This document shows positions 7,496-41,963 of a stretch of DNA of 64,000 bases, in pieces. Below the pieces are notes generated by a model. That model was given only the letters and a program-made list of their open reading frames with translations, searched no databases and was not told the DNA's origin. Source of the stretch: Phycisphaerales bacterium (GTDB taxonomy: Bacteria; Planctomycetota; Phycisphaerae; Phycisphaerales; UBA1924); assembly GCA_035627955.1 (NCBI GenBank), contig DASPKU010000002.1:148277-212276 (forward strand). Direction: 5' to 3'. Within the stretch, counting starts at the first letter, position 1. Every line of letters begins with the position of its first letter. Position numbers and translations under genes: made by a program.

Positions 7496-9225
7496 TCAGG
7501 CAGCTTATCGAGCTCTACCCGCACGCGCTCCGCGATCCGCTTCACCGCATCGGGCCCGAAGTCGAACGTGAGGCCGCTGGCGCGGAAGAGCTCGGGGAGT
7601 GGGCGGCTGCCGCCCAGCGACAGGCCCTTGATGTACAGCTCCACCGCCGACTTCTCGCCCTTCTCGAGCGAGTGCAGCCACAGCTGCAGCGCACCGAGCC
7701 GGGCGATGCCGTACTCGATGTAGTAGAAGGGGTGGCTGAAGAGGTGCAGCTGACGCTGCCAGATCCAGCGGCGGTACTTCTCAAGGCCCGTCCAGTCGAT
7801 TCGGCTGCCGAACCGCTCGTCGAGTCCGAGCCAGAACGTCGCCCGCTCCTCGCGGGTGTGCTTGGGGTTGCCGTACACCCACAGCTGGAACGCGTCGATC
7901 TGGGCAATCCACGGCAGCAGCAGCAGCGAGTGCTTGAGCTGCTCGCGGGCGGCGCGGGCCCAGTCTTCGTCGCTGGCATAGAACGAGCGCCAGTGCGGCA
8001 TGCTCAGCAGCTCCATCGACATGCTCGCCACCTCGGCGAACTCGATGGGGCTGTGCCGGTACTCCACCAGCGGCTCCTCCTCGCACAGCATGCTGTGGAA
8101 CGCGTGCCCCGCCTCGTGCACCATTGTCTCCACGTCCTTGTGCATGCCCGCCGCGTTCATGAAGATGAACGGCCGGCGCGTGCGGTCGCGCATGTACTGG
8201 TACCCGCCCGGGGCCTTGCCCTTGCGGCTGTCCAGGTCCAGGCACGCGCCGTCGCGGGCGCCGCGGGACTCCTCGCCCGTGCCCAGGCGCGCGAACATCT
8301 CGGCCAGGCGCGCGTCAAGCCGACGGAACGTCGCCAGCGACTTGTCCATCAGGTCCTTGCCGCCGTTGAAGGGCTTGAGCGGCCCGCGCCCCTTGGGGTC
8401 AACCCCGAAGTCCCACGGCCGCAGCGCGTCGAGCTTCAGATCGGCCGCGCGCTTCCTGTCGAACTCGCGGACGAGCGGCACGATCGCCTCCTCCACGCCC
8501 GCGTGGAACTGGCGGCACGCCTCGACCCCGTAGTCGAAGCGGTGCTTGCTCTTGAACGCGTAGCCGACGTAATCCTCAAAGCCCGCGTTCCGCCCGACCT
8601 TGGTCCGCAGCGCGACCATCTCCTCGTACACATCGTTGATGGCGGTGACGTCCTGGAAGCGGCGGTCCATGACCGTCCGCCATGCAGCCTCGCGCTTGGC
8701 GCGGTCGGGCAGCTCCTGGTACTTGGCCATTTGCGGGAGCGTCTTCTCCTCGCCCTCAAACTGCACCGACATGGCCCCGGCGATCTGGTCGTACTTCTGG
8801 CTGAGCTTGGCGAGCTCGGTCTCCAGCGGCACGTTCTCCTCGCGGAAAAGCTCGACGTCGGCCTGGGCCGCGCGGAGCAGCACGCCGTAGCGCCCGGCAT
8901 CCAGTGGGAACTTCTTCGCGAGCTCCACCAAGCGCTTGTCGAGCTCAAAGAACAGCGGGGTGAGCCTGGGGGCGACGTTCTCGATGTACGACGCGTAGGC
9001 CTGCTGCGCCGCCTTGCCGTCGGTGTCGCAGCTCATGGAGATGTAGAGGTTGGCCCTGCCCTCGCTGCACGCGGCCGCGAGCTCGCTGCGGTCCAGCAGC
9101 CACGCCTCCAGCTCCTCTGCCGAGCGCACGGGCCGCTCGAGCAGGGCTTTGAACAGCGGCTCGAGGGCGTCAAAGCGGGTCGCGTCGAGGTCGGCCGGAA
9201 CGAGTGTGGTGCTGATGGTGGGCAT
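7492..9225 (-). CDS. M3 family oligoendopeptidase (PepF/thimet-like)
   Basis: The 577-residue protein is a zinc metallopeptidase of family M3, which cleaves short peptides in the cytoplasm. The zinc motif HEAGH sits at residues 370-374, and family-typical context surrounds it (FIFMNAAGMHKDVETMVHEA before, SMLCEEEPLVEY after). The N-terminal two thirds are helical, as in oligoendopeptidase F. No signal peptide is visible. Length is typical for this branch. It overlaps the next gene by four bases (ATGA), forming a two-gene unit with the small membrane protein. Confidence 0.92.
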   Translation of the reverse strand: MPTISTTLVPADLDATRFDALEPLFKALLERPVRSAEELEAWLLDRSELAAACSEGRANLYISMSCDTDGKAAQQAYASYIENVAPRLTPLFFELDKRLVELAKKFPLDAGRYGVLLRAAQADVELFREENVPLETELAKLSQKYDQIAGAMSVQFEGEEKTLPQMAKYQELPDRAKREAAWRTVMDRRFQDVTAINDVYEEMVALRTKVGRNAGFEDYVGYAFKSKHRFDYGVEACRQFHAGVEEAIVPLVREFDRKRAADLKLDALRPWDFGVDPKGRGPLKPFNGGKDLMDKSLATFRRLDARLAEMFARLGTGEESRGARDGACLDLDSRKGKAPGGYQYMRDRTRRPFIFMNAAGMHKDVETMVHEAGHAFHSMLCEEEPLVEYRHSPIEFAEVASMSMELLSMPHWRSFYASDEDWARAAREQLKHSLLLLPWIAQIDAFQLWVYGNPKHTREERATFWLGLDERFGSRIDWTGLEKYRRWIWQRQLHLFSHPFYYIEYGIARLGALQLWLHSLEKGEKSAVELYIKGLSLGGSRPLPELFRASGLTFDFGPDAVKRIAERVRVELDKLPE

Positions 9226-9258
9226 GAACGGATGGTAGCCGGAGGCAAAAACGAGAAA

Positions 9259-9282
9259 GGCCCGGCGGTGGTCCGCCGGGCC
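9259..9282 (-). terminator. Intrinsic terminator of the ClpP-fold gene pair
   Basis: A 10-bp GC stem, GGCCCGGCGG / CCGCCGGGCC, with loop TGGT lies 35 bases downstream of the stop of the minus-strand gene ending at 9317. On the minus strand it is followed by TTTCTCGTTTTTGCC, the classic arrangement for Rho-independent termination. Confidence 0.8.
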
Positions 9283-9316
9283 CTCAGTTTCAGTGGTCTC
9301 GATGGTGGTCAGCGCC

Positions 9317-10591
9317 TCAGCGGCGGGCCAGCTCGCGGATCAGCTTCTCCTGCTCCTTGACCCAGTCATCGAACTCGTCCATCAGCATGTTGAAGGCCAT
9401 GAAGGAGAAGTTGGGGTTGTTCTTCACCATGCGCTGGATCTGCTCGAGGGCCTGGCGGGCCTTGCCCAGGAACTTGCCGCGGTCCTCGGGCGGAGACTGC
9501 GCCGCCATGTTGATGGCGGTGGTGTAGTCGACCTGGTACTTGCGGGTCAGGTCCTCGTCCTTCTTGACCTTCTTGCGCCACTCCATGTTGTTCTTTTCGG
9601 CAGCGCTGATCGGCCAGGGGAAGCCGCGGACGTTGTTGCCAACCCACTCGAGCTCGGTGTAGCCCATCGCCTTGGTGAGCTCCTCGAGGGTCTCGCAGGT
9701 GCCCTTGGAAAAGCCGCACTTGAGGGCGGTCTCGGAGTTGAAGGTGAGCACCTCGCCGATGGGATTGATGACCATCTCGCCGCTGGTGACGTCGCCGTAC
9801 CAGTCGACCTTGCCGTTCTCGCGGACGGTGCAGGAGAGGGGCTGCTGGATCTGCATAGCGCGGGCGATGAGCGGGTGGTGGCCGCCGCGGGCGGAGATCT
9901 TCTCCATCCGGTGCAGGACCTCCTCGAGGCCGCGGCCCTTGGTGGCGTTGAGGGCCCCCGAGTACTGCGTCGCAGCGCCGTAGTTGCCCTGGCGGGTGAA
10001 GTAGATGTCTTCCATGCAGTGGGAGGTCATGGCCGCGGCCGAGATGGCCGAGTCGATCCAGGCAACGGTCCGCCACCGCTTCTTGTACTCGTTATGGATA
10101 ACGTCGGAGAGCTTCTGCACCTCAAGGGTGAGGCCGCCGCCGGAGTGGACGCGGAGCACCACGATGCCGGTGCCGTCGGTGCCCAGTTCCTTCTCGAGGA
10201 TGGGGATCATCTGCTCGAGCTGGTGGGCGGTCATGTAGATGCCCACCATGTGGCCGTTCTCTTCATCGCCCAGCGTGATCACCGCGGCCTTGGGGGCGCC
10301 GGTGTTCTTCTTCGGCGCGGGCGCGGCGGTGGTGGCGGCAGCGCCCGTCGTGCCGGCAACCGGGCCGCGCTCGACGGAGGCGACCTCATCGGCGGAGAAG
10401 AACTCCTCGCGCTCGATGCCGCCGATGGTGGTCTTGATCCAGATGTGGCCGGACTCCTCGCGGGCGATGGTGCCCTCGACGGTCTTGCCACTCTTCAGGA
10501 CGACTTTGTCGGCCAGGCCGGTCGTCGCGAGCACCGCGACACAGACGAGCATGGCCAGCGATCGGAGCAGGGACGTGATTCGGGTCAACAT
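9317..10591 (-). CDS. Exported ClpP/crotonase-fold (NfeD/SppA-like) protein, serine retained
   Basis: The 424-residue protein begins with a signal-peptide-like segment (SLLRSLAMLVCVAVLATTGLA). A small beta domain follows at ~28-77 (VLKSGKTVEGTI, then IEREEFFSADEV), then a low-complexity Ala/Thr linker. From ~115 to 350 lies a ClpP-fold domain: GIVVLRVHSGGG at ~142, VAWIDSAISAAAM at ~177-188 and a GA-rich segment at ~206. Ser184 in AISAAAM falls where NfeD and SppA proteases carry the nucleophile (ASAG/ASGG). SD AAGAGG precedes the ATG. It lies 18 bases downstream of a paralogue with the same architecture, so the two form an operon. It probably acts outside the inner membrane. Substrate unknown. 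Confidence 0.75.
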   Translation of the reverse strand: MLTRITSLLRSLAMLVCVAVLATTGLADKVVLKSGKTVEGTIAREESGHIWIKTTIGGIEREEFFSADEVASVERGPVAGTTGAAATTAAPAPKKNTGAPKAAVITLGDEENGHMVGIYMTAHQLEQMIPILEKELGTDGTGIVVLRVHSGGGLTLEVQKLSDVIHNEYKKRWRTVAWIDSAISAAAMTSHCMEDIYFTRQGNYGAATQYSGALNATKGRGLEEVLHRMEKISARGGHHPLIARAMQIQQPLSCTVRENGKVDWYGDVTSGEMVINPIGEVLTFNSETALKCGFSKGTCETLEELTKAMGYTELEWVGNNVRGFPWPISAAEKNNMEWRKKVKKDEDLTRKYQVDYTTAINMAAQSPPEDRGKFLGKARQALEQIQRMVKNNPNFSFMAFNMLMDEFDDWVKEQEKLIRELARR

Positions 10592-10609
10592 GGGTTTGTA
10601 CCTCTTGCG

Positions 10610-12061
10610 TTACCGCTTGTCTGCGAGTTGACGGAGCTTGATCTGGTCGATGCCGATCATGATCTCGGACACAGGCGGGATGCCGTTCTCGCCGAGCCAC
10701 TGCTCGAGACCCTCGCCCCACTTCTGCATCAGGGCCTTGATCTCCTCGAGCTTGCGGATTTGCAGGCCGCGGGCGCGGGTGCGCTCCTGATAGTCGCCCT
10801 GCACCTGGATTTCCTGGTACTCCTCGAACAGGGTCACGATCCGCTTCTTGGCGTTCGCCACGCCGTCGACCCATTCCTTCTGGATCTGCTTGGCCCGCCC
10901 GGGGATGAGGACACCGGTGCGCTCAAGGCCCATGGCGTGGAGCAGCTCGTCGCGGGTGTCGACTGTGCCCCTGGACAGGCCGACCAGCTTGGCCGTCTCG
11001 GCGTTCATCGTGAGCACGTCGTTGCCGGTCCAGCGCACGCGCTCACTGAGGGAGTCGAAGTTGCCGCCCATGCCGTCATCAGTGAGCAGGACCTCGCCCG
11101 GGGCCTGTGGGTAACCCTCGAAGAGCTCCACCTTGCCATCACGGACGCGGTAGCTCATCACGAACTCGGAGCGGCCCATGGCCCGAATGATCATGGGGTT
11201 GTAGCCGCCCTTGATCGCCCAGCCCTCGGCGTGACGCAGGAACGCGGAGCGGAGCTTCTCACGAACCACCTCGTCGCCGGTGTTGCCGTAGAGCTGGCTG
11301 AGGTTGCCGATGCCGCCCATGCGGGCCTCGCTCGAGAAGTAGATTTCGGGAGCGCACAGGGGCACGAACGCCGCGCCGGCCATCGCCTGCTTCACCCAGA
11401 ACACGATGCGCGGCGGCTTGTGGTTGTACTCGGTGGGCAGCTCATTGACGAGCACGGGCAGGATCTTCTCGGCGCGGAAAATGCCCTGGAAGTCGGAGTC
11501 CTGGTCGTTGGCCTTGTCGGCGTTGATCACCCCGTCCTTGTCGTTCCAGTCGGCGTCGAGCTCAAAGACGATGACCTCGGCGTTGTTTCGCTTCGCGTCC
11601 CGGATGGCGTTGCGGATCGGGGTCTCCGAGATCTCCTGCCCGAACTCGCCCTTGAGCTCGACCCAGTAGATGCCCGTCTTGCCGTCGCGGCTTTCCGCGG
11701 CCTTGTCGCTGCCGCCGCTGCTCTTGAGCGTCGGGGCGGCGGTGTTGGACGGGGCCGCCGGAGCATCGCCGGTGGTCTTTGCCACGCCACGCTTGATCGT
11801 CAGGATGTCCGACATCGGGTACTCGGTCTCGGCCTCGATGCCGGCGATAAGCCCCTTGAAGCGGATGGCAGAGGCCGTCTCCGACACGATCTTGCCCTCA
11901 AGCGTGCGGCCGTTCTTGAAGATGATGATGTCCTGCGTGGACGCCGTCTCCTTCGCGCTGCTCTCGGTCTGCGAAAGTGCCGCGGTCGGAACGGTGCAGA
12001 GGCCGATCACCGCCGCCAACGCGGAGGTCGCGACCTTGTTCTTCCAAGCTCTGTTCTTCAT
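10610..12061 (-). CDS. Exported ClpP-fold paralogue, serine position replaced
   Basis: The 483-residue protein is a paralogue of the next gene: signal peptide (VATSALAAVIGLCTVPTAALS), an N-terminal beta domain (FKNGRTLEGKIVSET), a Ser/Ala-rich linker and a ClpP-fold domain. Without gaps, IDSAISAAAMTSHCMEDIYF of the neighbour aligns with VKQAMAGAAFVPLCAPEIYF here (residues ~223-242). The neighbour's Ser184 therefore corresponds to Ala228, and the family nucleophile is absent. I chose ATG 12061, which has a GAGGTGG site and begins at a proper signal peptide; 13 upstream in-frame codons were dropped. It is the first gene of the pair and may be a structural or binding subunit. Confidence 0.72.
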   Translation of the reverse strand: MKNRAWKNKVATSALAAVIGLCTVPTAALSQTESSAKETASTQDIIIFKNGRTLEGKIVSETASAIRFKGLIAGIEAETEYPMSDILTIKRGVAKTTGDAPAAPSNTAAPTLKSSGGSDKAAESRDGKTGIYWVELKGEFGQEISETPIRNAIRDAKRNNAEVIVFELDADWNDKDGVINADKANDQDSDFQGIFRAEKILPVLVNELPTEYNHKPPRIVFWVKQAMAGAAFVPLCAPEIYFSSEARMGGIGNLSQLYGNTGDEVVREKLRSAFLRHAEGWAIKGGYNPMIIRAMGRSEFVMSYRVRDGKVELFEGYPQAPGEVLLTDDGMGGNFDSLSERVRWTGNDVLTMNAETAKLVGLSRGTVDTRDELLHAMGLERTGVLIPGRAKQIQKEWVDGVANAKKRIVTLFEEYQEIQVQGDYQERTRARGLQIRKLEEIKALMQKWGEGLEQWLGENGIPPVSEIMIGIDQIKLRQLADKR

Positions 12062-29295: not shown

Positions 29296-30621
29296 TCAGC
29301 GGAAGCGGCGGACGCAGAGCGTGTTGTTCTGCCCGCCGAAGCCGAAGCTGTTGGAGAGGCAGACGTCGACGCCGCCGAGGGGCCGCAGGTCGCGGGCGCT
29401 GTTGGGCACGTAATCGAGGTCGCACTCGGGGTCGGGCGTGTGCAGGTTGAGCGTGGGAGGCACCCAGCCGGACTGGATGGCCATGACGCAGGTCATCAGT
29501 TCCACTGCGCCCGCCGCCTGGATGAGGTGGCCCAGCATGCTCTTGACGCTGCTGAAGGGCACCTGCTTCGCAAGGTTGCCGAAGACGCCCTTCACCGCCA
29601 CGGTCTCGATTTTGTCGTTCTCCTGCGTGCCGGTGCCGTGGGCGGAGATGTAGTGCACGCGCGGGCGGCCGTTCTCGCCGGGCTCACGCGGGTCGATGCC
29701 GGCCTGGCGGCAGGCCTGGCTCATGGCGGCGATGGCGCCCTTGCCGTCGGGCTGGATGTCGGTAATGCGGAAGGCGTCGGCGGAGCTGCCGAAGCCCGCG
29801 ATCTCCGCGAGCGGCGTCGCGCCGCGGGCCTTGGCGGATTCGAGCGACTCGAGCACGAGCACGCCAGCGCCCTCGCCCATGACGAAGCCGTCACGCGAGA
29901 CGTCGAAGGGGCGCGAGGCGTGGGCCGGGTCGTCGCGCCGTGTCGACATCGCTGTCAGGCGGATGAAGCCGGTCATGCCCAGCGGGTGGATCATCGAGTG
30001 GCTGCCGCCAGCGAACATGAGGTCGGCGTCGCCGCGACGGATGATCTCGAAGGCCTCGCCGATGGCCTGCGTGCTGGCGGCGCAGGCGGTCATGCAGTTG
30101 AAGGAGGGCCCCATGCAGCCGAACTGCCGGGCCATGTGCGACAGCACCTGATGAGGCTCCTGCTCCAGCTCGTTGATGGGGTCCAGACGCGAGAGCGCCG
30201 CCTTCTCCCACTCGCCGTCGTTCACCGCGCGTTTGGTGGCGTCCCAGCCGGCGATGTTGACGTAGGCGAAGGTGTCAAAGTCCATCGGCCCTTCGCCAGC
30301 GCCCATGTAGATGCCCATGCGCGAGGGCTCGAAGGCGCCCTTCGTGAGGCCCGCCTGCTGCCAGGCCATGCTCGCGGCGGCGAGGGCGAACTGCGAGTTG
30401 AGCCCTGCCTTGGCCAGGCGCGGGGTCGTGGGGACGTAGCGCGACAGGTCGAAGTTCTTCACCTCGGCGGCGAAGTTTGTGGCGAAGCTGGATGCGTCGT
30501 AGCGGGTGATGGGGCCGATGCCGCAATCGGCGCGGAGGAGCCGCTGCCATACCTCTTCCAGCCCCGAGCCCAGGGGGGTGACCCAGCCCATGCCCGTGAT
30601 GACGACCCGCCGCTGGCTCAT
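29296..30621 (-). CDS. Beta-ketoacyl-ACP synthase II (FabF-like), catalytic residues intact
   Basis: The 441-residue protein is a condensing enzyme of the KAS I/II family, which elongates acyl-ACP with malonyl-ACP. The N-terminus reads VVITGMGWVTPLGSG. The full catalytic set is present: Cys180 in MTACAAS, His328 in SAHGTGT, Lys360 and His365 in SVKSMLGHL. The C-terminus ends with NSFGFGGQN. ATG 30621 was chosen because the family begins two or three residues before RRVVITG. Two genes upstream on the same strand lies a homologue without these residues, which suggests a KS-alpha/KS-beta-like pair rather than ordinary fatty acid synthesis. No ACP gene is in the window. Confidence 0.9.
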   Translation of the reverse strand: MSQRRVVITGMGWVTPLGSGLEEVWQRLLRADCGIGPITRYDASSFATNFAAEVKNFDLSRYVPTTPRLAKAGLNSQFALAAASMAWQQAGLTKGAFEPSRMGIYMGAGEGPMDFDTFAYVNIAGWDATKRAVNDGEWEKAALSRLDPINELEQEPHQVLSHMARQFGCMGPSFNCMTACAASTQAIGEAFEIIRRGDADLMFAGGSHSMIHPLGMTGFIRLTAMSTRRDDPAHASRPFDVSRDGFVMGEGAGVLVLESLESAKARGATPLAEIAGFGSSADAFRITDIQPDGKGAIAAMSQACRQAGIDPREPGENGRPRVHYISAHGTGTQENDKIETVAVKGVFGNLAKQVPFSSVKSMLGHLIQAAGAVELMTCVMAIQSGWVPPTLNLHTPDPECDLDYVPNSARDLRPLGGVDVCLSNSFGFGGQNNTLCVRRFR

Positions 30622-30717: not shown

Positions 30718-31356
30718 TTACTGGTTCTCGAAGTCGTGGATCTGGCCGCTGGGACCCGCATCGGAGTCCACTTCGCCGTCGTGCTGACTCGTGACCCCCC
30801 GATCGAGGTTGATCTTCTCGATGTTGAGCACGCGGACCAGGCCGTCGGTCAGGCGCTTGTCAGCGAAGTTGATAATGAGCCCGAGGTCGAGGTTCGCGGC
30901 CTTGAGCTGCGCGCGGAGGCGCAGGCGGTCGGGCGTGTCGACCTCGCGCGGCTCGGCCATCACGGTTACCAGGAACAGGCCATCGACGAACAGCCCGCAG
31001 GTGACCTCGCCGACCTTCTGTCCACGGTAGGTGACGGGGAAGGTTTGACGGGGCTTGTAGTGAAGGCCGATGTTGTCGAGCTCGAGGCGCAGGGCCTCAA
31101 GGTAGATGTCGGCGGGGTAGCCGGGGCCAAGGGCCTTGTGCACCTCGATGGAGCAGCCGATGACCTTGCGAGAGGCCTCGGTGATCTTGGGGTCAAGGTC
31201 GGAGAGGGGGATGCCGCGGCGTTCGCCGCCGTTGCCGCCCCCGTTCGAGCCGCGGTCGTTGTAGTTGCGGTCGTTCTGGCCCCCATAGCCTCGACCACCA
31301 CGACCGCCGCTCCGCCCCCCCCGGTTACGCCCGTCATCTCTGTAGTCGTTCGGCAC
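30718..31356 (-). CDS. GxxExxY-family protein with RGG-rich N-terminus, nuclease residues lost
   Basis: The 212-residue protein starts at GTG 31356 with GCGGAG upstream. Residues ~6-48 are rich in Arg, Gly, Asn and Asp (RGG-box-like: GRNRGGRSGGRGGRGYGG), a form typical of RNA-binding tails. From ~60 to 185 the sequence follows the GxxExxY family (IGCSIEVHKALGPG, then LDLGLIINFADKRL), a PD-(D/E)XK nuclease relative. The defining residues are changed: GxxExxY reads GYPADIY (Glu to Ala82), the ADFxV aspartate is Gly121, and the ELK motif is TVM (131-133). It is therefore probably not a nuclease. It sits between two ketosynthase homologues on the same strand, an unexpected context. Confidence 0.75.
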   Translation of the reverse strand: MPNDYRDDGRNRGGRSGGRGGRGYGGQNDRNYNDRGSNGGGNGGERRGIPLSDLDPKITEASRKVIGCSIEVHKALGPGYPADIYLEALRLELDNIGLHYKPRQTFPVTYRGQKVGEVTCGLFVDGLFLVTVMAEPREVDTPDRLRLRAQLKAANLDLGLIINFADKRLTDGLVRVLNIEKINLDRGVTSQHDGEVDSDAGPSGQIHDFENQ

Positions 31357-31405: not shown

Positions 31406-32758
31406 TCAGTTAGCAGACTTGAGCACCAGGGCCGCGTTCTGGCCGCCCTGTGCGCTGGAACAAACGAGAATAGCCCGCAGGCGGGCCGCGCGGGCCGCCT
31501 TGGAACCGACGAAGTTATCAGATAAGACACCGCCGGTCTCAAATCGGGCGGGCAGACGCTGCTCCTTCACACAAAGAGCCCCCACGGCCGCGAGAATCGA
31601 GCCGTTCCCGGCGGCGCAGTCGCCCAGGGCCGGGGTGAGGGTGACGAGTTCGACGGTGTTGAGGTGCTCGCCAAATACCTGACGCAACGCGCCGGCTTCT
31701 CCGGCGTCAACGCTCGCAATTCCACAGCCTTGGGGGATTATGGCATCAATATCCTCGGCTTTGAGTTGTGCATCCCTGAGCGCGTTGCGGATGGCATGAG
31801 CCAGCCCTTCGTTCACGCCCTGCGGCTCGTCCGAAGGGATCGAGTGGGCGGCGCCGAATCCGGCGACCTCGGCGTAGACCTTGGCCCCGCGCTTCGTCGC
31901 GGCGGTGGCCTCCTCGAGCACGAGCAGGCCGCCGGCCTCGCCCGGGATGGTGCCGGCGCCCTCCGCCTCATAGGGGCGGACCGTGGGGGAGCCATCGGTG
32001 GGGCGGAGGCGGTTCCAGAGCGTCATCTTGGCCATGCCCATCAGGTTGAGCTTGGACTCGGCCCCGCCGGAAAAGCAGAGGTCCGCGGCGCCGCGCTCGA
32101 TGACGCGGCAGGACTCGCCGATGGAGAGAAGGCCGCTGGCCTCGGCGCAGGTGATGGTGTTGCTCGGGCCCTCAGTGCCGTGGATGATGGTGACGTGGCA
32201 CGCGAGCATGTTGGGCAGGTACTTGAGCATCCAGAGGGGCTGGAGGTTGTCCATGCCGCCGCCGCCCTCGGGCGGGATGGTGCCCCAGCGCTTGAGGGTG
32301 AGGCCGTTGGTTTTGTCGAGCTGCTCGGGGGTGGCGGCGGGGTCGCGGGCTGTGACCATGGCCGCGGAGATTTCCTGCGTCTCGGAGCAGATCAGGCCGG
32401 CCCCGATGTGGCAGCCGACGCGCTCGGGCGGGTAGGTGAGTTGGCGCGAGGGGTCGGACTCGAGGGTGGCCTTGGTGACCAGGCCGGCGTCGTCGACCGC
32501 GAGCTTGGCGGCGCCGACGGCGAGCTCGGTGTCCCGGACCATGACCTTGACCGCCTTGCGGTAGCTCTTGGGCACGTAGTCCTTGGCGGAAAAATCTTTG
32601 ACCTCCGCGGCGAGCTTGCAGGGAAAACCGGACGGGTCAAAGCGGGTGATGGGGCCGATGCCGGAGCGGCCGGCGCAAAGACCCTCCCACAAAGCGGATA
32701 CGCCAACGCCCAGGCCCGTGACGGCGCCGATACCGGTGATGAAGACTCTTTTGTGCAT
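31406..32758 (-). CDS. Ketosynthase homologue with all catalytic residues replaced (KS-beta/CLF-like)
   Basis: The 450-residue protein has the thiolase-fold ketosynthase layout: VFITGIGAVTGLGVGVSALW at the start, GPSNTITCAEASG at ~198 and GEAGGLLVLEEA at ~273. A gapless alignment to the FabF at 29296 (GPS...IGE anchors) puts the catalytic Cys180 opposite Glu206, not the nearby Cys204. His328 corresponds to Gln343 (IPQGCGI), Lys360 to Thr375 and His365 to Asp380 (LGDCAAG). It cannot condense acyl chains by the known mechanism. It resembles in principle the chain-length-factor subunits of type II polyketide synthases. It is the first gene of the three-gene minus-strand run. Start at ATG 32758. 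Confidence 0.82.
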   Translation of the reverse strand: MHKRVFITGIGAVTGLGVGVSALWEGLCAGRSGIGPITRFDPSGFPCKLAAEVKDFSAKDYVPKSYRKAVKVMVRDTELAVGAAKLAVDDAGLVTKATLESDPSRQLTYPPERVGCHIGAGLICSETQEISAAMVTARDPAATPEQLDKTNGLTLKRWGTIPPEGGGGMDNLQPLWMLKYLPNMLACHVTIIHGTEGPSNTITCAEASGLLSIGESCRVIERGAADLCFSGGAESKLNLMGMAKMTLWNRLRPTDGSPTVRPYEAEGAGTIPGEAGGLLVLEEATAATKRGAKVYAEVAGFGAAHSIPSDEPQGVNEGLAHAIRNALRDAQLKAEDIDAIIPQGCGIASVDAGEAGALRQVFGEHLNTVELVTLTPALGDCAAGNGSILAAVGALCVKEQRLPARFETGGVLSDNFVGSKAARAARLRAILVCSSAQGGQNAALVLKSAN

Positions 32759-32857: not shown

Positions 32858-34336
32858 ATGGATGCACGCCCGAACCGAGCGTACCCCCACAAGTGGATGT
32901 ACCGACTAGCAGTTGCGGCGGTGGCAGTTTTTTTGATCCTGACGCCAAAAACCTCGCTGGGACAGGATCGGGAGGACGTGGAGCGGGAGGCGGGGCCGCC
33001 GACGCTGCCGGCCACGGCCGCGGGGAATCAGCTGATGTGGGTGCTGAAGGTCGTCAATGGGCAGGAGATTGGCGACCTCAAAGACCACTTTTCCGATCGG
33101 TTCATCCAGACGCGGGGGGACGACACCAAGGTGCTGCTGGAGGGGCTGCGGCAGGAGGTGTTCGAGGGCGGCAAGGTCATCGTCAACAAGGTGCTCGACG
33201 GCGAGCGGGAGAACGACATCTCAGCGGAGGTCACGAGCAAGGAGTCCTGGCGGTACCTGCACGTGTTCCTGATGGTGGATGAGAAGGACGGCAAGATCCG
33301 GGGGCTGCGGTTCGCGCCGGCGGGGGGCGTGGGGCGCAACGTGGGGAACTGGAAGCAGTTCGACAACGCGATGAACCGCGTGCCCGAGGGGGTGTCGTTC
33401 GGGGCGTACGAGCTGGTGCCGGTGAACCCCAACGTCGAGGGCAGCCCGCTGACCATGCGGGTGCTGGCGGAGAACGGGGCGGACCGGCGGCTGAATGTGG
33501 GGGCGACGGGGTACCTGTATGTCGTGGGGGCCGCAGCGGAGGAGGTCGCGGGCAAGCGGATGGGCTGGGACGACAAGGTGGCCCTCAAGCCCGAGTGGAA
33601 TAGCCTGCCGCCGGGGGAGATGCGCGCGATGGAGGGGGAGCATGCGCTGCGCGAGTTCGTGCTGCGGGTGATGGACGACAGCGACAACACGGCTGCGGAC
33701 CACCTGCTGCACCATGTCGGGCGTGACAAGGTCGAGGCGTACCTGGCCAAGATGCATCTGGCGGCGGAACGGAATCAGCCATTCCTGAGCAGTCGGGAGG
33801 TTTTTGCGCTCAAGACCGGGAAGGACAAGGAGATGCTGGCGAAGTTCGGCGTGGCGGGGGTGGAGGAGCGGCGGGGGATGCTGGCGAAGGTGGCCGCGCT
33901 GCCGCTGACGGAGGACGCGGCGGAGGAGTGGACGGACCCAACGGAGATCGAGCGGGTCGGGTGGTTCGCGAGCGCGACGGAGTGCTGCCGCGTGATGATG
34001 GACCTGCACCGGCTGACGCAGAAGGAAGGCATGGAGCCGCTATCGGAGGCGCTGGAGTCAAACCGGGGGGTGAAGCTGAGCCAGGAGTTATGGCCACGGG
34101 CCTGGTACAAGGGCGGGGACGAGCCGGGCGTGCTGAACATGACGTGGCTGTTGGAGCGGGACGACGGGCGGCTGTTCGTGATGTCGATCGGGTGGAACAA
34201 CCCCAAAGGCGAGGTGAAGGAGGCGCGCCTGCTGGACCTGGCGCTGGCGGCGATCCGGCTGCTGGGCGAGGAGGGGCGGAAGAGAGAGCCGGCTCCTGCG
34301 CCGCGGCCCAAGGTTGATCCGAACGCGGCGAACTGA
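32858..34336 (+). CDS. Exported class A beta-lactamase-fold (Orf12-like) protein lacking the SxxK motif
   Basis: The 492-residue protein starts at ATG 32858, seven bases after AAGGAG, and has a signal peptide (LAVAAVAVFLILTPKTSLG). Residues ~50-160 resemble the cystatin-like N-terminal domain of clavulanate-cluster Orf12 proteins. Residues ~190-480 follow the class A beta-lactamase fold. The SDN motif is present (275-277), and KGG occurs in WYKGGDEPGVLNMTW. Where the family has the nucleophilic SxxK (GSAFKLY), this protein has GATGYLY (Ala216, Tyr219), so acylation chemistry should be lost. It may be a binding protein. It is divergent from the degenerate ketosynthase gene. Confidence 0.75.
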   Translation: MDARPNRAYPHKWMYRLAVAAVAVFLILTPKTSLGQDREDVEREAGPPTLPATAAGNQLMWVLKVVNGQEIGDLKDHFSDRFIQTRGDDTKVLLEGLRQEVFEGGKVIVNKVLDGERENDISAEVTSKESWRYLHVFLMVDEKDGKIRGLRFAPAGGVGRNVGNWKQFDNAMNRVPEGVSFGAYELVPVNPNVEGSPLTMRVLAENGADRRLNVGATGYLYVVGAAAEEVAGKRMGWDDKVALKPEWNSLPPGEMRAMEGEHALREFVLRVMDDSDNTAADHLLHHVGRDKVEAYLAKMHLAAERNQPFLSSREVFALKTGKDKEMLAKFGVAGVEERRGMLAKVAALPLTEDAAEEWTDPTEIERVGWFASATECCRVMMDLHRLTQKEGMEPLSEALESNRGVKLSQELWPRAWYKGGDEPGVLNMTWLLERDDGRLFVMSIGWNNPKGEVKEARLLDLALAAIRLLGEEGRKREPAPAPRPKVDPNAAN

Positions 34337-36371: not shown

Positions 36372-38393
36372 CTAGTGCACCGCCTCGGTGACGCGGAGGA
36401 CTTCGCTCACGGTGGTGAGGCCCTTGGCGACCTTGCGCATGCCGTCGGCTCTCAGGGTGACCATGCCGCGTTCGATGCAGAGGCGGCGGAACTCGGCGAC
36501 GTTGGGGTTGCGGGCGATGATGTCGCGGAGCTGGTCGTCGACGGTGAGGAGCTCGTAAATGCCCACGCGCCCGGAGTAGCCGCAGTTGCGGCAGCGGTCG
36601 CAGCCCTTGGGGGACCAGACCTCGTCGGCGTCGAAGCTGTGCATCGCGAGGAAGTCGGCCATCTCTTCGGTGGGCTTGGTCAGGTGCTTGCAGTGGGTGC
36701 AGAGGCGGCGGATCAGGCGCTGGGCGAGCACGGCATTGACGGCGGCGCCGACAAGGAAGGGCTCCAGGCCGATGTTGACCAGGCGCGTGATGGAGCTGGG
36801 GGCGTCGTTGGTGTGGAGGGTGGAGAGGACGAGGTGGCCGGTGAGGGCGGCCTGCACGGCGATGTGGGCGGTCTCGTGGTCGCGGATTTCGCCCAGCATG
36901 ATGACGTCGGGGTCCTGGCGGAGGAGGGAGCGCAGGGCCGTGGCGAAGGTCATGCCGATTTTTTCGTGCATCTGCGTCTGGGTGATGCCGTCGAGGTGGT
37001 ACTCGATGGGGTCCTCGACGGTGCAGACGTTCATGGAGTTCTTGTCGAGCTGGCGGAGGGAGGCGTAGAGGGTGGTGGTCTTGCCCGAGCCGGTGGGGCC
37101 GGTGACGAGGACGATGCCGTGGGGGGCGTCGACCTGCTTTTTCCAGATGGTGTAGGTGTTCTCGTCGAAGCCCAGGTTCTCGAGCTCGACGTTGATGGAG
37201 CGGGTGTCGAGGATTCGCATGACCACCTTCTCGCCGTAGCCGGTGGGGAGGGTGGACATGCGGAGGTCGAGCTTGCGGTTGGCGACGGTGCAGCGGATGC
37301 GGCCATCCTGGGGGAGGCGGCGCTCGGCGATATCGAGGTTGGCCATGATCTTGAGGCGGGAGACGATGGCCGGGCCCATGGAGACGGGCGGGTTCATCAT
37401 CTCGAAGAGCTCGCCGTCGATGCGGAATCGGACCTTGAGCTTCTTCTCGGCGGGCTCGATGTGGATATCGCTGGCGCCCTCCTTGACGGCGGTCTGGATG
37501 ATGTAGTTGGCGAAGCGGATGACCGGGCTCTCGCCGGCGATCTTCTCGAGGTCCACCTCGTCCTGCGACTTCTTCTCGACCTGGACGTCGTTCTCGCTGA
37601 CCTCGGAGAGGATCTGGTTGACGTCGTCGGTGGGCTCGTCGTTCTTGCCGCCGCCGAGGATCTCGAAGGCGCCCTTGAGGTCGAAGGCGGGGACGAGGAC
37701 GATCTTGACGCCGGTGGTGCCCAGGGCCTTGCGGACCTCGTCGAGCAGGAAGACGTTGTCGGCCTGCGTGGTGCCGATGATGACGCGGCTGCCCTCCGTG
37801 CGGAGGGGGATGAGCATGTGGTGCTTGCAGAACTCGAGGGTGAGGCGCTGCACCAGCGAGCCGTCGAAGCCGCCCTCGAGGCCCTTGATGAGGTCGATGC
37901 GCTCAAAGGGGATCCCCGCGGCCTCGGCGACGCAGGACTGCACGCCGGCTTCGTCGGCGCCCTGCTCGATGAGCACGTCGGGCAGCTTGCGGTTGGGCGA
38001 GGCCTTGACGACGCTGAGCGCGGTGGTGAGCTTCTCGGCGTTGACCACCTGGCGGGAGAGGAGCAGCTCGGCGAGGGTGGGGTTGGCGCCGGCCTCGATG
38101 GCGGCGTCGGGGGTGTAGATCTCGCTGATAGCGGGGCCCACGGCGGGGCCGCTGGAGCCCTTCACCTGCTTCACCGCGGGGTCGTCGGCGGTGGAGGGCG
38201 CGTCCTGGCCGAAGGCGCGCTGGTTGGCGGGCATGGAGGGCAGGGGAGAGAACGAGGCCTCGGCCTCATCGACGCGGTGCTTGCGGTCGGCGGACTCCTT
38301 CTGGAGTTCCTTGGAGCTCTGGGCCTCCTTGCGGGCCTTGGGGTCGCTAACGCCCAGCTCGCTGAGGATGTCGTCGATGTTGTACTTGGCCAC
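36372..38393 (-). CDS. GspE/PilB-type assembly ATPase
   Basis: The 673-residue protein powers assembly of a type IV pilus or type II secretion pseudopilus. Residues ~1-110 are polar. A MshEN-like N-terminal domain follows (~100-250). The ATPase domain contains GPTGSGKTT at 432-440, the Asp-box-like VEDPIEYHLDGITQTQ, the Walker B DVIMLGEIRD and the His-box GHLVLSTLHTNDAPS. The C-terminal tetracysteine zinc site is CTHCKH and CDRCRNCGYSGRVGIYE. Start at GTG 38393 with GGGAGAG upstream. It is the last gene of the pilM-N-O operon, which supports a pilus role. Confidence 0.9.
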   Translation of the reverse strand: MAKYNIDDILSELGVSDPKARKEAQSSKELQKESADRKHRVDEAEASFSPLPSMPANQRAFGQDAPSTADDPAVKQVKGSSGPAVGPAISEIYTPDAAIEAGANPTLAELLLSRQVVNAEKLTTALSVVKASPNRKLPDVLIEQGADEAGVQSCVAEAAGIPFERIDLIKGLEGGFDGSLVQRLTLEFCKHHMLIPLRTEGSRVIIGTTQADNVFLLDEVRKALGTTGVKIVLVPAFDLKGAFEILGGGKNDEPTDDVNQILSEVSENDVQVEKKSQDEVDLEKIAGESPVIRFANYIIQTAVKEGASDIHIEPAEKKLKVRFRIDGELFEMMNPPVSMGPAIVSRLKIMANLDIAERRLPQDGRIRCTVANRKLDLRMSTLPTGYGEKVVMRILDTRSINVELENLGFDENTYTIWKKQVDAPHGIVLVTGPTGSGKTTTLYASLRQLDKNSMNVCTVEDPIEYHLDGITQTQMHEKIGMTFATALRSLLRQDPDVIMLGEIRDHETAHIAVQAALTGHLVLSTLHTNDAPSSITRLVNIGLEPFLVGAAVNAVLAQRLIRRLCTHCKHLTKPTEEMADFLAMHSFDADEVWSPKGCDRCRNCGYSGRVGIYELLTVDDQLRDIIARNPNVAEFRRLCIERGMVTLRADGMRKVAKGLTTVSEVLRVTEAVH

Positions 38394-38429: not shown

Positions 38430-39059
38430 TCAACGGGTCACGGGGCCGGTGCCCATGCGGGTGGGGGACTTCTTCTGGGTGTTGGGCTTGGGCTCCTCGA
38501 GTGAGAGGGTGAAGGTCTCGCCGTAGGCCTCGAAGGTGACAGTGCGGCCGCTGACGCCGGTGACGGTGAAGATGTCGATCTGGTCGCCGGTGCGGACGGT
38601 GAGGTCGTCGATGCGGGCGACGTTGCCGATGATGCCGCGGAGCTTCATGCGCTTGAGAGCGTCCACGGCCTCGGCGCGCCGGCGGTCGGCGTCGGAGAGG
38701 CCGGGCTCGATGGGGCCGGCGTCGGGGGTGACGAGGGCCTGGGGGCGCTCGCGCATGAAGGGGCTCTTGCCGAACTCGGTGAGGGTGACATCCAGGGGGT
38801 TCTGGACGCGGGCGAGGTCGGCCATTATGCGCTCATAGGAGCGGGCCTTGGCGGAGTCGTCCTCCTTGAAGTCAACGGGGACCTCGGTGAACTTGAAGCC
38901 CGAGCGCATGCCGTAGGAGCGCATGCCCCAGAGGGCGCCGATGCTGACGCTGAGGATGAGCAGCAGGACGGGAACCTGCGAGGGCATCTTGGGCTTGCGG
39001 GCGCCGGGGGCGGTGATCATGGGCGCGTCGTTGAGGTTGGAGATGTCGTTGCCGCTCAC
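38430..39059 (-). CDS. Type IV pilus operon membrane protein in the PilP position
   Basis: The 209-residue protein has a polar N-terminus, one membrane helix (VPVLLLILSVSIGALWGM) and a periplasmic part. The C-terminal region forms a small beta domain (LRGIIGNVARIDDLTVRTGDQ, then TVTFEAYGETFTLSLEEP), comparable to the C-terminal domain of PilP/GspC-type alignment proteins. Direct similarity to PilP is weak, so this call rests mostly on operon position: it overlaps the stop of pilO by ATGA and precedes pilB. Confidence 0.65.
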   Translation of the reverse strand: MSGNDISNLNDAPMITAPGARKPKMPSQVPVLLLILSVSIGALWGMRSYGMRSGFKFTEVPVDFKEDDSAKARSYERIMADLARVQNPLDVTLTEFGKSPFMRERPQALVTPDAGPIEPGLSDADRRRAEAVDALKRMKLRGIIGNVARIDDLTVRTGDQIDIFTVTGVSGRTVTFEAYGETFTLSLEEPKPNTQKKSPTRMGTGPVTR

Positions 39060-39610
39060 TTGGAACCTCCCTGGGCCAGCTGGGCCTCGTCCTGGAAGTA
39101 GATGCTGAGGGTGAACTCGGCCTTGAGCTCGACGCCGTCCTTGGGATTGCCCGAGATCTTCAGGTCGTGCACGCGGGTGATGCGGGGGAGCTTCTCAACG
39201 CTCGCGAGGAAGGTGAAGAAGCCGAGGAAGTCGCCGCTGACCTCGATCTCGATGGGCTGCTCCATGTAGAGCGCGGTCTGGATGGGGCGGAGCGTCTTCA
39301 TTGCCGGGGCCTGCAGGTTGTACGTCTCGGCGAGGTCGGAGACCTTGCGGACGACGTCGTCGACCTCCTTGCTGGAGGGCAGGCGGGCCTCGATGACCTT
39401 GATGCTGTTCTGGATCTCGGCGTTGCTGCGCTCGAGGTCGGCGTTGCGGGCGGTCTCTTCCTGGAGCTTTACCAGGAGCTGCTCCTTGTGCTCGACCTCC
39501 AGCTTCTGGGTCTGGATTTCGTTGTTGAGGGGCTTGAAGACGAAGAAGTAGCTGGCGATGGGCATGCCGACCACGGCGGCGATGAGCAGGGCGCGGAGGT
39601 GGGTGTTCAA
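39056..39610 (-). CDS. pilO: Type IV pilus inner membrane alignment protein PilO
   Basis: The 184-residue protein has an N-terminal membrane helix (LLIAAVVGMPIASYFFVF) and a coiled-coil periplasmic stem (QKLEVEHKEQLLVKLQEETAR). The ferredoxin-like PilO domain contains the family motif IEIEVSGDFLGFFTFLASVEKLPRI. PilO pairs with PilN in the inner membrane and links PilM and PilP. It overlaps both neighbours by ATGA, so it is translationally coupled to pilN and to the PilP-like gene. Confidence 0.85.
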   Translation of the reverse strand: MNTHLRALLIAAVVGMPIASYFFVFKPLNNEIQTQKLEVEHKEQLLVKLQEETARNADLERSNAEIQNSIKVIEARLPSSKEVDDVVRKVSDLAETYNLQAPAMKTLRPIQTALYMEQPIEIEVSGDFLGFFTFLASVEKLPRITRVHDLKISGNPKDGVELKAEFTLSIYFQDEAQLAQGGSK

Positions 39611-40452
39611 GGGTTGTTCTCCTGCTTGGGAGTGGCGTCGGTGATGGTGGGGCCGGCCTTGGCGTCGGGCGTGGTGCTGCCCTTCTGCAGCTGCGCGCTT
39701 CGGGCGGCCTTGAGGCTGGTCAGGCTGTCGGCGAGGACCTGCGAGTTGATGTCGGTCCTGATGCTTGCGGAGATCTCGAACTTGCGGAACTCCTTGTCCT
39801 TCTCCCTGGCCTCGCGGATGAAGGTGAGCTCGACCTTGTCGAGGATGGGGCTGTCCTTGAGGCTCTTGAGGAAGTCGGCGACATCGGAGTTGTTGTCGGC
39901 GCTGCCGCTGATGGTCATGGCGTAGGTGAACGTGGGGGCGGTGACCTTGGGCTTCTCGGGGGTGGGGTCGGGGGCGCCGGCGACCTTGTCGGTGAGGCTC
40001 TTGACGATGGGCTTCTTGGCGGGCGCGGCCGCGGCGGGTGCGGCGACGACGGGGTCCTTGCGGGTGCTCTTGATCACCAGCGAGTCGAGCGTGGAGGACA
40101 TGGGCTTGCGGAGGGTGACCTCGCCGAGCACGGCCCAGCGGGGCACGCGGTCGATAAGGGCGGAGGTGATCTCGGCCTTCTCCATCATCTGGGCGCGCTG
40201 GCTTTCGAGGGCCTTGAGCTGCTCGATCTTCTTGCCCTCGGCGTCGAACTGCTCGTTGACGAGCATCTGGCGGGCGCGGATGTCCTTGCCCTGCTGGTTG
40301 GTGACCAGGAAGGCGCCGACCACGCCGGCCATGACCAGCATGAAAAGCGAGAGGATGAGGATGTTGACGCGGGACTCGGTCTTGCGCGCGATGTAGTCCT
40401 CGGGGAGGAAGCTGCTGTTCGCGGGCGCGACTGGGCGGAAGGGGTTGCTCAT
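39607..40452 (-). CDS. pilN: PilN-like type IV pilus assembly protein
   Basis: The 281-residue protein has a short cytoplasmic N-terminus, a membrane helix (ILILSLFMLVMAGVVGAFLV), a coiled-coil segment and a periplasmic ferredoxin-like domain near ~185-245 (TFTYAMTISGSADNNSDVADF, then VELTFIREAREKD). The N-terminal NPFRPVAPANSSFLPEDY includes the short sequence likely to contact PilM, as in known PilN proteins. An Ala/Pro/Lys-rich insert splits the periplasmic domain. It overlaps pilO by four bases. Confidence 0.82.
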   Translation of the reverse strand: MSNPFRPVAPANSSFLPEDYIARKTESRVNILILSLFMLVMAGVVGAFLVTNQQGKDIRARQMLVNEQFDAEGKKIEQLKALESQRAQMMEKAEITSALIDRVPRWAVLGEVTLRKPMSSTLDSLVIKSTRKDPVVAAPAAAAPAKKPIVKSLTDKVAGAPDPTPEKPKVTAPTFTYAMTISGSADNNSDVADFLKSLKDSPILDKVELTFIREAREKDKEFRKFEISASIRTDINSQVLADSLTSLKAARSAQLQKGSTTPDAKAGPTITDATPKQENNP

Positions 40453-40485
40453 GGAGAGCTCCAGGGGGTCGGGGACATTCGTGGG

Positions 40486-41769
40486 TTAGAGGTCGGTGGG
40501 GGAGAGGCAGAGGCCGAGGGTGACGGCCCAGCCGGGCTGGGGCTGCTTGAGGTCAACGCCGAGCGCCGGCTCACTGCCGGTGCGGGCGACGCGGGCGAGG
40601 GGGTCGGCCATCTGCGCGGGCAGGCGGAGGGCCTTGGCAATGGCCTGGCAGAGGCCCTTGTGGCGGGCCTCGCCGCCGACGAAGATCGCGCGTTCTACGC
40701 GCTTGCCGGGAAACTGGCTCTCGTGGTAGCGGACGCACATCAGAACCTCGTCGGTGAGGCTCTCGAGGGGCTCGCTGAGGTCGGCGGCGGCGGGGGCGAA
40801 GGCGGCGCGGGGCTGGGCGGCGAGGTCGGTGGTGAAGCCGGTGGCGAGGGGCTGCAGGCCGCGTTCGTCGGAGCGCTTGAAAGGCTCGGCGTGCGCGCCC
40901 GCGCCGACGAGCGCGGGAGCGGGTGCCGCGACGGTGGCGGGGCGGTGGATGGTGCGGACGAGCTCGTCGGCCTCCATGCGGCGGCGGCCGGCCTCCGCGA
41001 GGTCGCACTTGAGCTGCTTGGCGATGGTCTCGTCGAAGTGGCGGCCGCCGAGCTGGATGGCGCGGGCGAAGGCGAGGTCCTTGCCGTGCGAGATCATGAC
41101 GTTGGTGGTGGCGTTGCCGATGTCGAGGTAGAGGGTGTTGATGGCGGAGTCGGTCTCGCGCTTGTGGACATGATCGAAGGTGCGGAGCACGGCGGCGAAC
41201 TCGCTGTGCATGCCGACGGGCTGGAGCTTGCAGGCGGCGATCGCGCCCATGAGCTGCTGCACGAGCTCGAAGGAGACGGCGGTGACGATGACCTCGGCCT
41301 TGCCGGGGCGGTCGGGCGCGGGGACTTCGGTGAAGCGGTGCACGATCGTCGCGGGGTCCAGGTTGAAGGCGCCAGGGAGCGCGGCGTTCACGAGCGCGGC
41401 CGTGGACTGGCCCTCGACGCGCTGCAGCGAGAGGTGCTTGCAGTGGATGGCCCAGGCGGGGATGGCGCACACGGCGCGCTTGCCCTTGAAGCCGCCGGAG
41501 CGGAGGAGGCGCGGGAGGCCTTCGAGCTGGAACTTGAGGCGGCGGGACTGGTCGCGGAGGAGGTCGAGGGGTGTTTCGAGGCAGGCCGCGGCGACGAGCG
41601 AGGGGGGCTCGCCCTGCTGCACCTGGAGGATCTTGAGGGCGGCGGTGCCGAACTCGATGGCGATGGGGAGGGCGTGGGTGGTGTTGATGCCGAGCGTCTC
41701 GCCCACGGAGGAGGAGAGGACGTTGCCCAGCTTGGAGAGCGAGCTGAACTTGGGGACGTTGAACGCCAT
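40486..41769 (-). CDS. pilM: PilM-like actin-fold pilus assembly protein
   Basis: The 427-residue protein has the FtsA/PilM actin-like ATPase fold. ALPIAIEFGTAALKILQVQQ near residue 40 is the phosphate-1 loop region (canonical DxGxxxxK, here EFGTAALK). INTLYLDIGNATTNVMISHG near ~220 is phosphate-2, and AIFVGGEARHKGL is the adenosine motif. PilM is cytoplasmic and binds the PilN N-terminus. An Ala/Pro-rich insert of ~60 residues lies before the last third. ATG 41769 starts the first gene of the five-gene operon; the 194 bases upstream should carry its promoter. Confidence 0.85.
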   Translation of the reverse strand: MAFNVPKFSSLSKLGNVLSSSVGETLGINTTHALPIAIEFGTAALKILQVQQGEPPSLVAAACLETPLDLLRDQSRRLKFQLEGLPRLLRSGGFKGKRAVCAIPAWAIHCKHLSLQRVEGQSTAALVNAALPGAFNLDPATIVHRFTEVPAPDRPGKAEVIVTAVSFELVQQLMGAIAACKLQPVGMHSEFAAVLRTFDHVHKRETDSAINTLYLDIGNATTNVMISHGKDLAFARAIQLGGRHFDETIAKQLKCDLAEAGRRRMEADELVRTIHRPATVAAPAPALVGAGAHAEPFKRSDERGLQPLATGFTTDLAAQPRAAFAPAAADLSEPLESLTDEVLMCVRYHESQFPGKRVERAIFVGGEARHKGLCQAIAKALRLPAQMADPLARVARTGSEPALGVDLKQPQPGWAVTLGLCLSPTDL

Positions 41770-41963
41770 CGGCGGGCAAGCTCCACACGGGGCAGGACAG
41801 GCAGGTCGGGGGCAGCATGTGCCCGCCGGCGCGCGTGTTCGCGGCAGGAGGTGCATCGGCCAGCGGGGTGCGGGTGTTCAGCGTGTCAGGGTCGAGTGCA
41901 GATTGCCCAGGCGTCGCGGGCGTGCGGGGCGGCGCAGGCGGTACACGCGGCGTGTCAGGCGTG

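Follow-up and report, generated by a model that had tools for sequence, protein, structure and literature searches.

A ketosynthase homologue without catalytic residues, conserved across Phycisphaerae, as the probable partner of an intact ketosynthase

Introduction

What can a ketosynthase (KS) do once its catalytic residues have been replaced? KS-Q decarboxylases have a Gln at the position of the catalytic Cys and retain both His. For chain-length factors (CLFs) there is a long-standing argument on whether their Gln does chemistry or merely fills space. The KS/CLF is described as an obligate heterodimer of one active ketosynthase and one without catalytic residues (PMC12664062).

The same question is raised by a 64,000-nucleotide stretch of DNA from a Phycisphaerales bacterium, the whole of which is referred to as the window. 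It contains an intact ketosynthase gene (KSalpha) and, close to it, a homologue without catalytic residues (KSbeta). The original prediction, made from the sequence alone, read KSbeta as a structural or chain-length subunit paired with the active enzyme, and possibly as a new type. The features that bear on this reading are the following:

31406 to 32758, minus strand: KSbeta, a 450-aa ketosynthase homologue that lacks the catalytic residues (ATG at 32758, stop at 31406)
32180 to 32248, minus strand: KSbeta codons 171–193, putative interface/acyl-channel segment (lowest entropy of eleven stretches compared)
32141 to 32143, minus strand: GAG codon of Glu206, in the motif GPSNTITCAEASG (E, D or Q at 117 of 117 loci)
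30718 to 31356, minus strand: gene of a GxxExxY / PD-(D/E)XK_3 protein, GTG start, between KSbeta and KSalpha
29296 to 30621, minus strand: KSalpha, intact ketosynthase, 441 aa, Cys180-His328-Lys360-His365 (ATG at 30621; PF00109 and PF02801)

Results

Residues and fold of KSbeta

The positions originally given for the two ketosynthase genes were correct, and the coding strand of each is the minus one; the plus-strand frame at 31406-32758 is interrupted by a stop. KSbeta and KSalpha shared 29% identity (BLASTP, E 9e-47), and their alignment confirmed the four replacements that had been proposed: Glu206, Gln343, Thr375 and Asp380 of KSbeta (numbered from the ATG at 32758) stand opposite Cys180, His328, Lys360 and His365 of KSalpha. 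This alignment had been called gapless, which holds around the active site but not overall, where 56 gap positions were counted in 469 columns. The Pfam domains PF00109 and PF02801 matched both proteins, above cut-off in the case of KSbeta. On the FabF equivalog TIGR03150 (cut-off 493.75), KSbeta scored 234.9 bits, far under the cut-off, and KSalpha scored 447.4, with KSalpha passing the broader FabF subfamily (433.8 vs 387).

The predicted model of KSbeta, built on a 24-row alignment, had a mean pLDDT of 87.7 and aligned with KS structures over residues 1–450. FabF structures were the best matches in the structure search (Z 58.6; identities of at most 35% among the matches listed), and chain A of 1TQY reached a Z of 55.9. 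The fold is kept, as had been claimed, given the two Pfam matches and the match of the model to FabF. FabF (KAS II) is the closest solved fold to KSbeta, yet its catalytic Cys-His-His triad is absent there, with E-Q-D in its place.

In the model, Glu206 lies in the first turn of helix 205–221, at the nucleophile elbow. Cys204, whose placement in the active site would have spoken against the original prediction, was found just ahead of the elbow; we rejected it as a nucleophile on account of this position and because N, G or A replaces it in some KSbeta rows. We also rejected a frame error or a pseudogene. Residues 174–182 had a pLDDT below 50 in the monomer model, yet are mostly invariant, which would fit a stretch that is ordered only in a complex. 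In FabF, the stretch that corresponds to KSbeta residues 171–193 borders the acyl pocket at the dimer interface.

Conservation across Phycisphaerae

We compared KSbeta at 117 Phycisphaerae loci (113 different sequences), an uneven sample in which 80 loci are the best of at least 571 encoding stretches and hence close to the window; the named relatives among those best 80 were mostly Phycisphaerales and other Phycisphaerae. The Cys position was occupied by E in 106 loci, D in 6 and Q in 5, and by Cys in none. A position that is never Cys in 117 relatives indicates that the replacement is not due to chance. Close relatives that keep Cys had been named as evidence against the original prediction, and there were none among the 117, although a more distant lineage outside the class (family f39) does keep it. 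In 55 KSbeta rows the Cys position had E in 48, D in 4 and Q in 3, while the first His was retained in 13, the second His in 1 and the Lys in 17. The Cys-His-Lys-His set of KSalpha was intact in all 39 non-redundant full-length rows (42 of 42 with the addition of three further ketosynthases from the window's genome).

KSbeta was matched at E <= 1e-40 in 288 of the 298 genomes of the class, with no internal stop among the matches listed. The figure of 288 is an upper one for KSbeta proper, as about a dozen best values fell between 1e-40 and 1e-70 and, of the genomes concerned, G046 alone was checked individually. Fifty-two columns were invariant among 24 diverse KSbeta members. The mean column entropy near the lost His and Lys was 1.93 bits in KSbeta vs 0.81 and 0.76 bits in KSalpha, whereas over residues 171–193 it was 0.32 bits in KSbeta vs 1.55 in KSalpha, this being the strongest conservation of KSbeta in the eleven stretches. 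Judged from these alignments, the two proteins differ in their kind of conservation.

Linkage to KSalpha

A same-strand KSalpha began at most 1,013 bases downstream of KSbeta in 101 of the 117 loci, with a median gap of 79 bases (this count is by distance; the architecture labels give 100 of 117). The Glu is mostly conserved and the pair mostly co-occurs, the two points on which a homologue search had been proposed. The architectures were KSbeta-GxxExxY-KSalpha (44 loci), KSbeta-KSalpha (42), FabZ-ACP-FabZ-KSbeta-KSalpha (14), KSbeta alone (12), KSbeta-GxxExxY (2) and three others with one locus each. Regarding the 16 loci without a downstream KSalpha, the sequence ended at most 217 bases further on in five, and 1,293 bases were left in one; another nine had more than 4 kb remaining and still no KSalpha (of these nine, L038 and L089 are one sequence). 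In L069, KSalpha lies upstream of KSbeta. The pair is therefore non-adjacent in some genomes.

The GxxExxY gene, which is nuclease-like and has no known link to lipid synthesis, separates KSbeta from KSalpha in 44 of the 117 loci, making it a stable feature among the window's relatives, and perhaps it shares a transcript with the pair. Elsewhere in the window, a gene of a Beta-lactamase2-domain protein (32858-34336, plus strand) is transcribed away from KSbeta, and at 36372-38393 and 38430-41856 (both minus strand) a Type II/IV secretion ATPase (T2SSE, MshEN) lies beside open frames that, on visual inspection, resemble pilus assembly genes.

Gene module and its split in the window's order

Domain searches assigned the proteins of 160 aa and 130 aa that precede the pair to FabA/FabZ-like dehydratases and an acyl carrier protein (ACP). 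Beyond Phycisphaerae, the order FabZ-ACP-FabZ-KS-KS recurred in families f71, f39 and f57, with a FabG in f71 and f57. In all three loci scanned (L158, L162, L171), the gene of the FabG-type reductase followed the first FabZ and preceded the ACP, and the one of L158 was also assigned by NCBIfam. In the Planctomycetia-like families f50, f100 and f91, FabZ-ACP-FabZ-KSalpha was contiguous in L165, L171 and L224; KSalpha alone was seen in L168, and the KSbeta-like genes of Planctomycetia-like genomes were located apart from KSalpha. In L158 (f71), a GH3-type gene follows directly after KSalpha (9084-10859) with a weak likeness to OlsH, a lyso-ornithine lipid synthetase (99.7 bits vs a cut-off of 620); a possible hint at an aminolipid product.

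No FabZ-ACP-FabZ was linked to the pair at the window locus itself. In all ten genomes searched within the window's taxonomic order, an ACP flanked on both sides by FabZ homologues was found apart from the KS pair; the window's own genome has it at C12:38358-40653, unlinked to the pair. All parts of the module are present in the window organism, split between two sites, and we infer that they continue to work jointly. At this second site, a SseB-domain gene (L264 5769-6551, G000:C12) lies between FabZ and ACP, where FabG is found in other lineages.

Of 20 genomes, 19 had at least three PF02801 matches, the third being a fragment in two of them; the remaining genome, which is 91% complete, had two. 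The C6 ketosynthase of the window's genome clustered with FabF references in both careful trees (described below). With a further ketosynthase besides the pair, and the C6 one grouping with FabF, the pair most likely represents a second system that exists alongside ordinary fatty acid synthesis.

Other planctomycete lineages and phylogeny

In the FabZ-ACP-FabZ-KS-KS operon of family f39 (L159, L160, L161, L219, L220), both ketosynthases have Cys-His-Lys-His, the upstream one in five out of five genomes. The upstream KS of f71 (one genome) has Asp-His-Lys-His, and in that of f57 Asn or Ser occupies the Cys position. The nine KSbeta-like genes of Planctomycetia-like genomes had E (5), D (3) or S (1) at this position, and eight of them retained the first His and the Lys. 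Relatives with a partial triad (e.g. E/D-His-Lys-His/Asn) may have residual activity.

Trees were computed with FastTree on 133 rows and with more careful methods on 83 and 72 rows; all of them are unrooted. The 83-row tree takes in 18 of the 55 KSbeta rows and 11 of the 39 KSalpha rows; for the 72-row tree the figures are 9 and 7. Absent from both trees are the half-size ApeC (E. coli), the truncated L221 KS and the multidomain L060 KS, and the 72-row tree is additionally without the most divergent anammox KS, L161, L225, ApeR, ApeO, S876KSb and the L059 KS of the window's genome. In the 72-row tree, where the bootstrap was not fully settled, the KSbeta of all lineages and the Cys-bearing upstream KS of f39 formed one group (100/99), the downstream KSalphas grouped as well (98/94), and both groups formed one clade (100/99) that also took in a Streptomyces KS whose cluster contains dehydratases. 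The KSbeta and f39 group was weaker (95/69) in the 83-row tree, which has longer branches. Chain-length factors joined the actinobacterial KS with 88/84 (83 rows) and 61/81 (72 rows). AU tests did not reject a joint clade of KSbeta with the actinobacterial chain-length factors (p 0.134 with two factors, p 0.089 with nine), and they rejected one of KSbeta with the anammox non-canonical FabFs (p 0.00185). The Cys-bearing f39 KS as sister to inactive ketosynthases suggests that the CLF-like subunit was born inside the phylum.

Comparison with known systems

We hand-picked 16 actinobacterial chain-length factors out of 109 plasmid records; 14 carry this annotation, and the other two are annotated as N-terminal-like ketosynthase and adjoin a KS. 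Their Cys position had Gln in 13, Glu in 2 and Asp in 1. The residue set is the same as in KSbeta, with Glu being the minority in the actinobacterial factors and the majority in KSbeta; the Glu is therefore no mark that separates KSbeta from known chain-length factors, contrary to what had been proposed. KSbeta resembles the KSbeta/CLF of type II polyketide synthases (PKS), such as the actinorhodin KS/CLF (PDB 1TQY), in its inactive KS fold, in the Gln/Glu/Asp that stands for Cys, in the adjoining intact KS gene and in the discrete ACP of the cluster. Unlike in those systems, the planctomycete order is beta then alpha, the operon has two FabZ-type dehydratases, and KSbeta groups with planctomycete ketosynthases in the best trees. 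KSbeta is also nearly ubiquitous in a bacterial class, hence housekeeping-like, unlike the type II PKS CLF. The ishigamide KS/CLF (PDB 6KXD; compared by its chain A, which is among the fold matches) is another KS/CLF heterodimer, as is the aryl polyene ApeO-ApeC, which is described as working with FabZ-like dehydratases on reduced chains (PMC8358021) and in which ApeC is about half-size.

Within the phylum, Table 2 of Rattray 2009 (PMC2649909) gives FabF paralogues of Rhodopirellula baltica with Glu163 (RB4527) and Asp163 (RB3714). RB4527 is printed there as Glu163-His298-Lys328-Asn333, and this E-H-K-N pattern, compared via the printed residues, equals that of the KSbeta-like loci L169, L170, L173 and L175; the window KSbeta, unlike RB4527, has additionally lost His and Lys. 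The same paper reports Kuenenia FabF paralogues with Val, Phe and Ser at the site. In the anammox ladderane cluster, kuste3603-3606 are given as ACP, FabZ, FabF and non-canonical FabF (PMC4790861), so that kuste3605/kuste3606 resemble our pair as a tandem of an intact and an inactive KS beside ACP and FabZ. However, anammox-type loci put the intact gene first, and we rejected an identity of KSbeta with the non-canonical FabF of Kuste3606 type, which has V-N-K-E residues and belongs to a separate lineage (AU p 0.00185). In genome G381 we observed three inactive ketosynthases (L216, L217, L218), each directly after an intact KS, with the patterns S-S-D-N, V-N-K-E and F-N-K-E that are printed for Kuste3348, Kuste3606 and Kuste2805 (PMC2649909); these matches suggest that G381 is Kuenenia or a near relative.

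Discussion

In sequence terms, KSbeta is a class-wide inactive partner of an intact ketosynthase, and possibly essential. The reading as a structural or chain-length subunit fits our results, as the fold without catalytic residues adjoins an intact KS in most loci of the class. We consider it probable that KSbeta is the non-catalytic member of a heterodimer with KSalpha and that this heterodimer belongs to a second type II fatty-acid-like module. KSalpha would perform the chemistry, and KSbeta, by contributing the opposite face of the dimer interface, would shape the acyl channel, setting chain length or primer choice. Glu206, at the nucleophile site, would fill or polarise the dead pocket, as the Gln, Glu or Asp of the actinobacterial factors would do. 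The pair, a dedicated ACP and two FabZ-type dehydratases, with a FabG-type reductase in some lineages, would make up a Planctomycetota module beside the ordinary FabF, whose FabZ-ACP-FabZ part would be encoded at another genomic site in the window's order. There is a good chance that KSbeta works like a chain-length factor, its membership of that family being unproven. Against the heterodimer stand the 16 loci that have no KSalpha downstream, the separate sites of the KSbeta-like genes in Planctomycetia-like genomes, and the nuclease-like gene that splits the window's own pair.

Other roles have to be weighed against the heterodimer. A KS-Q-type decarboxylase, in which Glu206 replaces Gln and an acetyl starter is formed from malonyl-ACP, would be in line with the E, D or Q at every one of the 117 loci and with the first His and Lys kept by most of the Planctomycetia-like proteins. 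The window protein, however, has Glu206, Gln343 and Asp380 in place of the Gln and the two His that define a KS-Q, besides Thr375, and His and Lys are rare among the 55 rows. Since both His are reported to be indispensable for decarboxylation (PMC2649909), we regard this role as quite improbable. KSbeta could also act alone or as a homodimer, e.g. as a protein that recruits or holds foreign acyl groups for fatty acid synthesis, which is the proposal of Rattray 2009 for the non-canonical anammox paralogues (PMC2649909), and the distance between KSbeta-like genes and KSalpha in Planctomycetia-like genomes would suit such a role; but KSalpha lies within about 1 kb in most Phycisphaerae loci, and the anammox group is a separate lineage with V, F or S at the site instead of E/D/Q, which leaves this reading unlikely. 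Lastly, the loss of four catalytic residues could reflect a functionless FabF duplicate in decay, an explanation to which we give almost no weight in view of the matches in nearly all genomes of the class, free of internal stops among those listed, and of the 52 invariant columns.

With respect to origin, a member of the actinobacterial KS/CLF family could have reached Planctomycetota by gene transfer. The shared Q/E/D residue set, a similar local motif and the AU tests, which did not reject the joint clade, are compatible with this, yet in the best trees KSbeta falls among planctomycete ketosynthases, where its sister is the upstream KS that has Cys (95/69 and 100/99), and the chain-length factors join the actinobacterial KS; transfer is thus an improbable source. 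The simplest reading of the trees would be an active tandem pair in which the upstream copy, the later KSbeta, lost Cys first and His and Lys afterwards, both the direction and the order of loss being deduced from living lineages. The wider proposal, on which we are evenly divided, is that Planctomycetota evolved a CLF-like subunit of their own, separately from the actinobacterial one, as this upstream copy decayed, that its stages are still alive in f39, f71, Planctomycetia-like genomes and Phycisphaerae, and that the heterodimer drives a second type II fatty-acid-like module which is widespread and probably essential.

The idea of a new type stands in part. FabF paralogues with Glu163 or Asp163 were already in print in 2009, and the available excerpts of PMC2649909 neither call them KSbeta nor propose a KSalpha/KSbeta pair or a FabZ-ACP-FabZ module; the separate lineage and the module are what stands. 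The literature searched, partly as listings, gave no account of a KSalpha/KSbeta pair in Phycisphaerae, the portions of the papers found gave no description of the module or of the Cys-bearing sister lineage, and a search for glutamate at the active-site cysteine of chain-length factors returned no paper. Nothing on type II systems was found in the accessible part of the review PMC12078418. A type II PKS catalogue lists Planctomycetes among the phyla with KS-CLF hits (PMC10132072, in the portion available), so an entry for some planctomycete pair may exist there. As far as this literature shows, the module across several planctomycete lineages and the sister lineage with Cys-His-Lys-His in its upstream KS are new.

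For the organisms themselves, an ACP-FabZ-FabZ-KSbeta-KSalpha module beside a normal FabF probably means that a dedicated acyl chain is made. Transposon data reported for Planctopirus limnophila (PMC10632474) include a group of five KAS-II-type paralogues, all of them essential. If a separate lineage settled on Glu, Asp or Gln after the loss of Cys, with an intact sister still alive, the argument on the role of the Gln would become testable by comparison.
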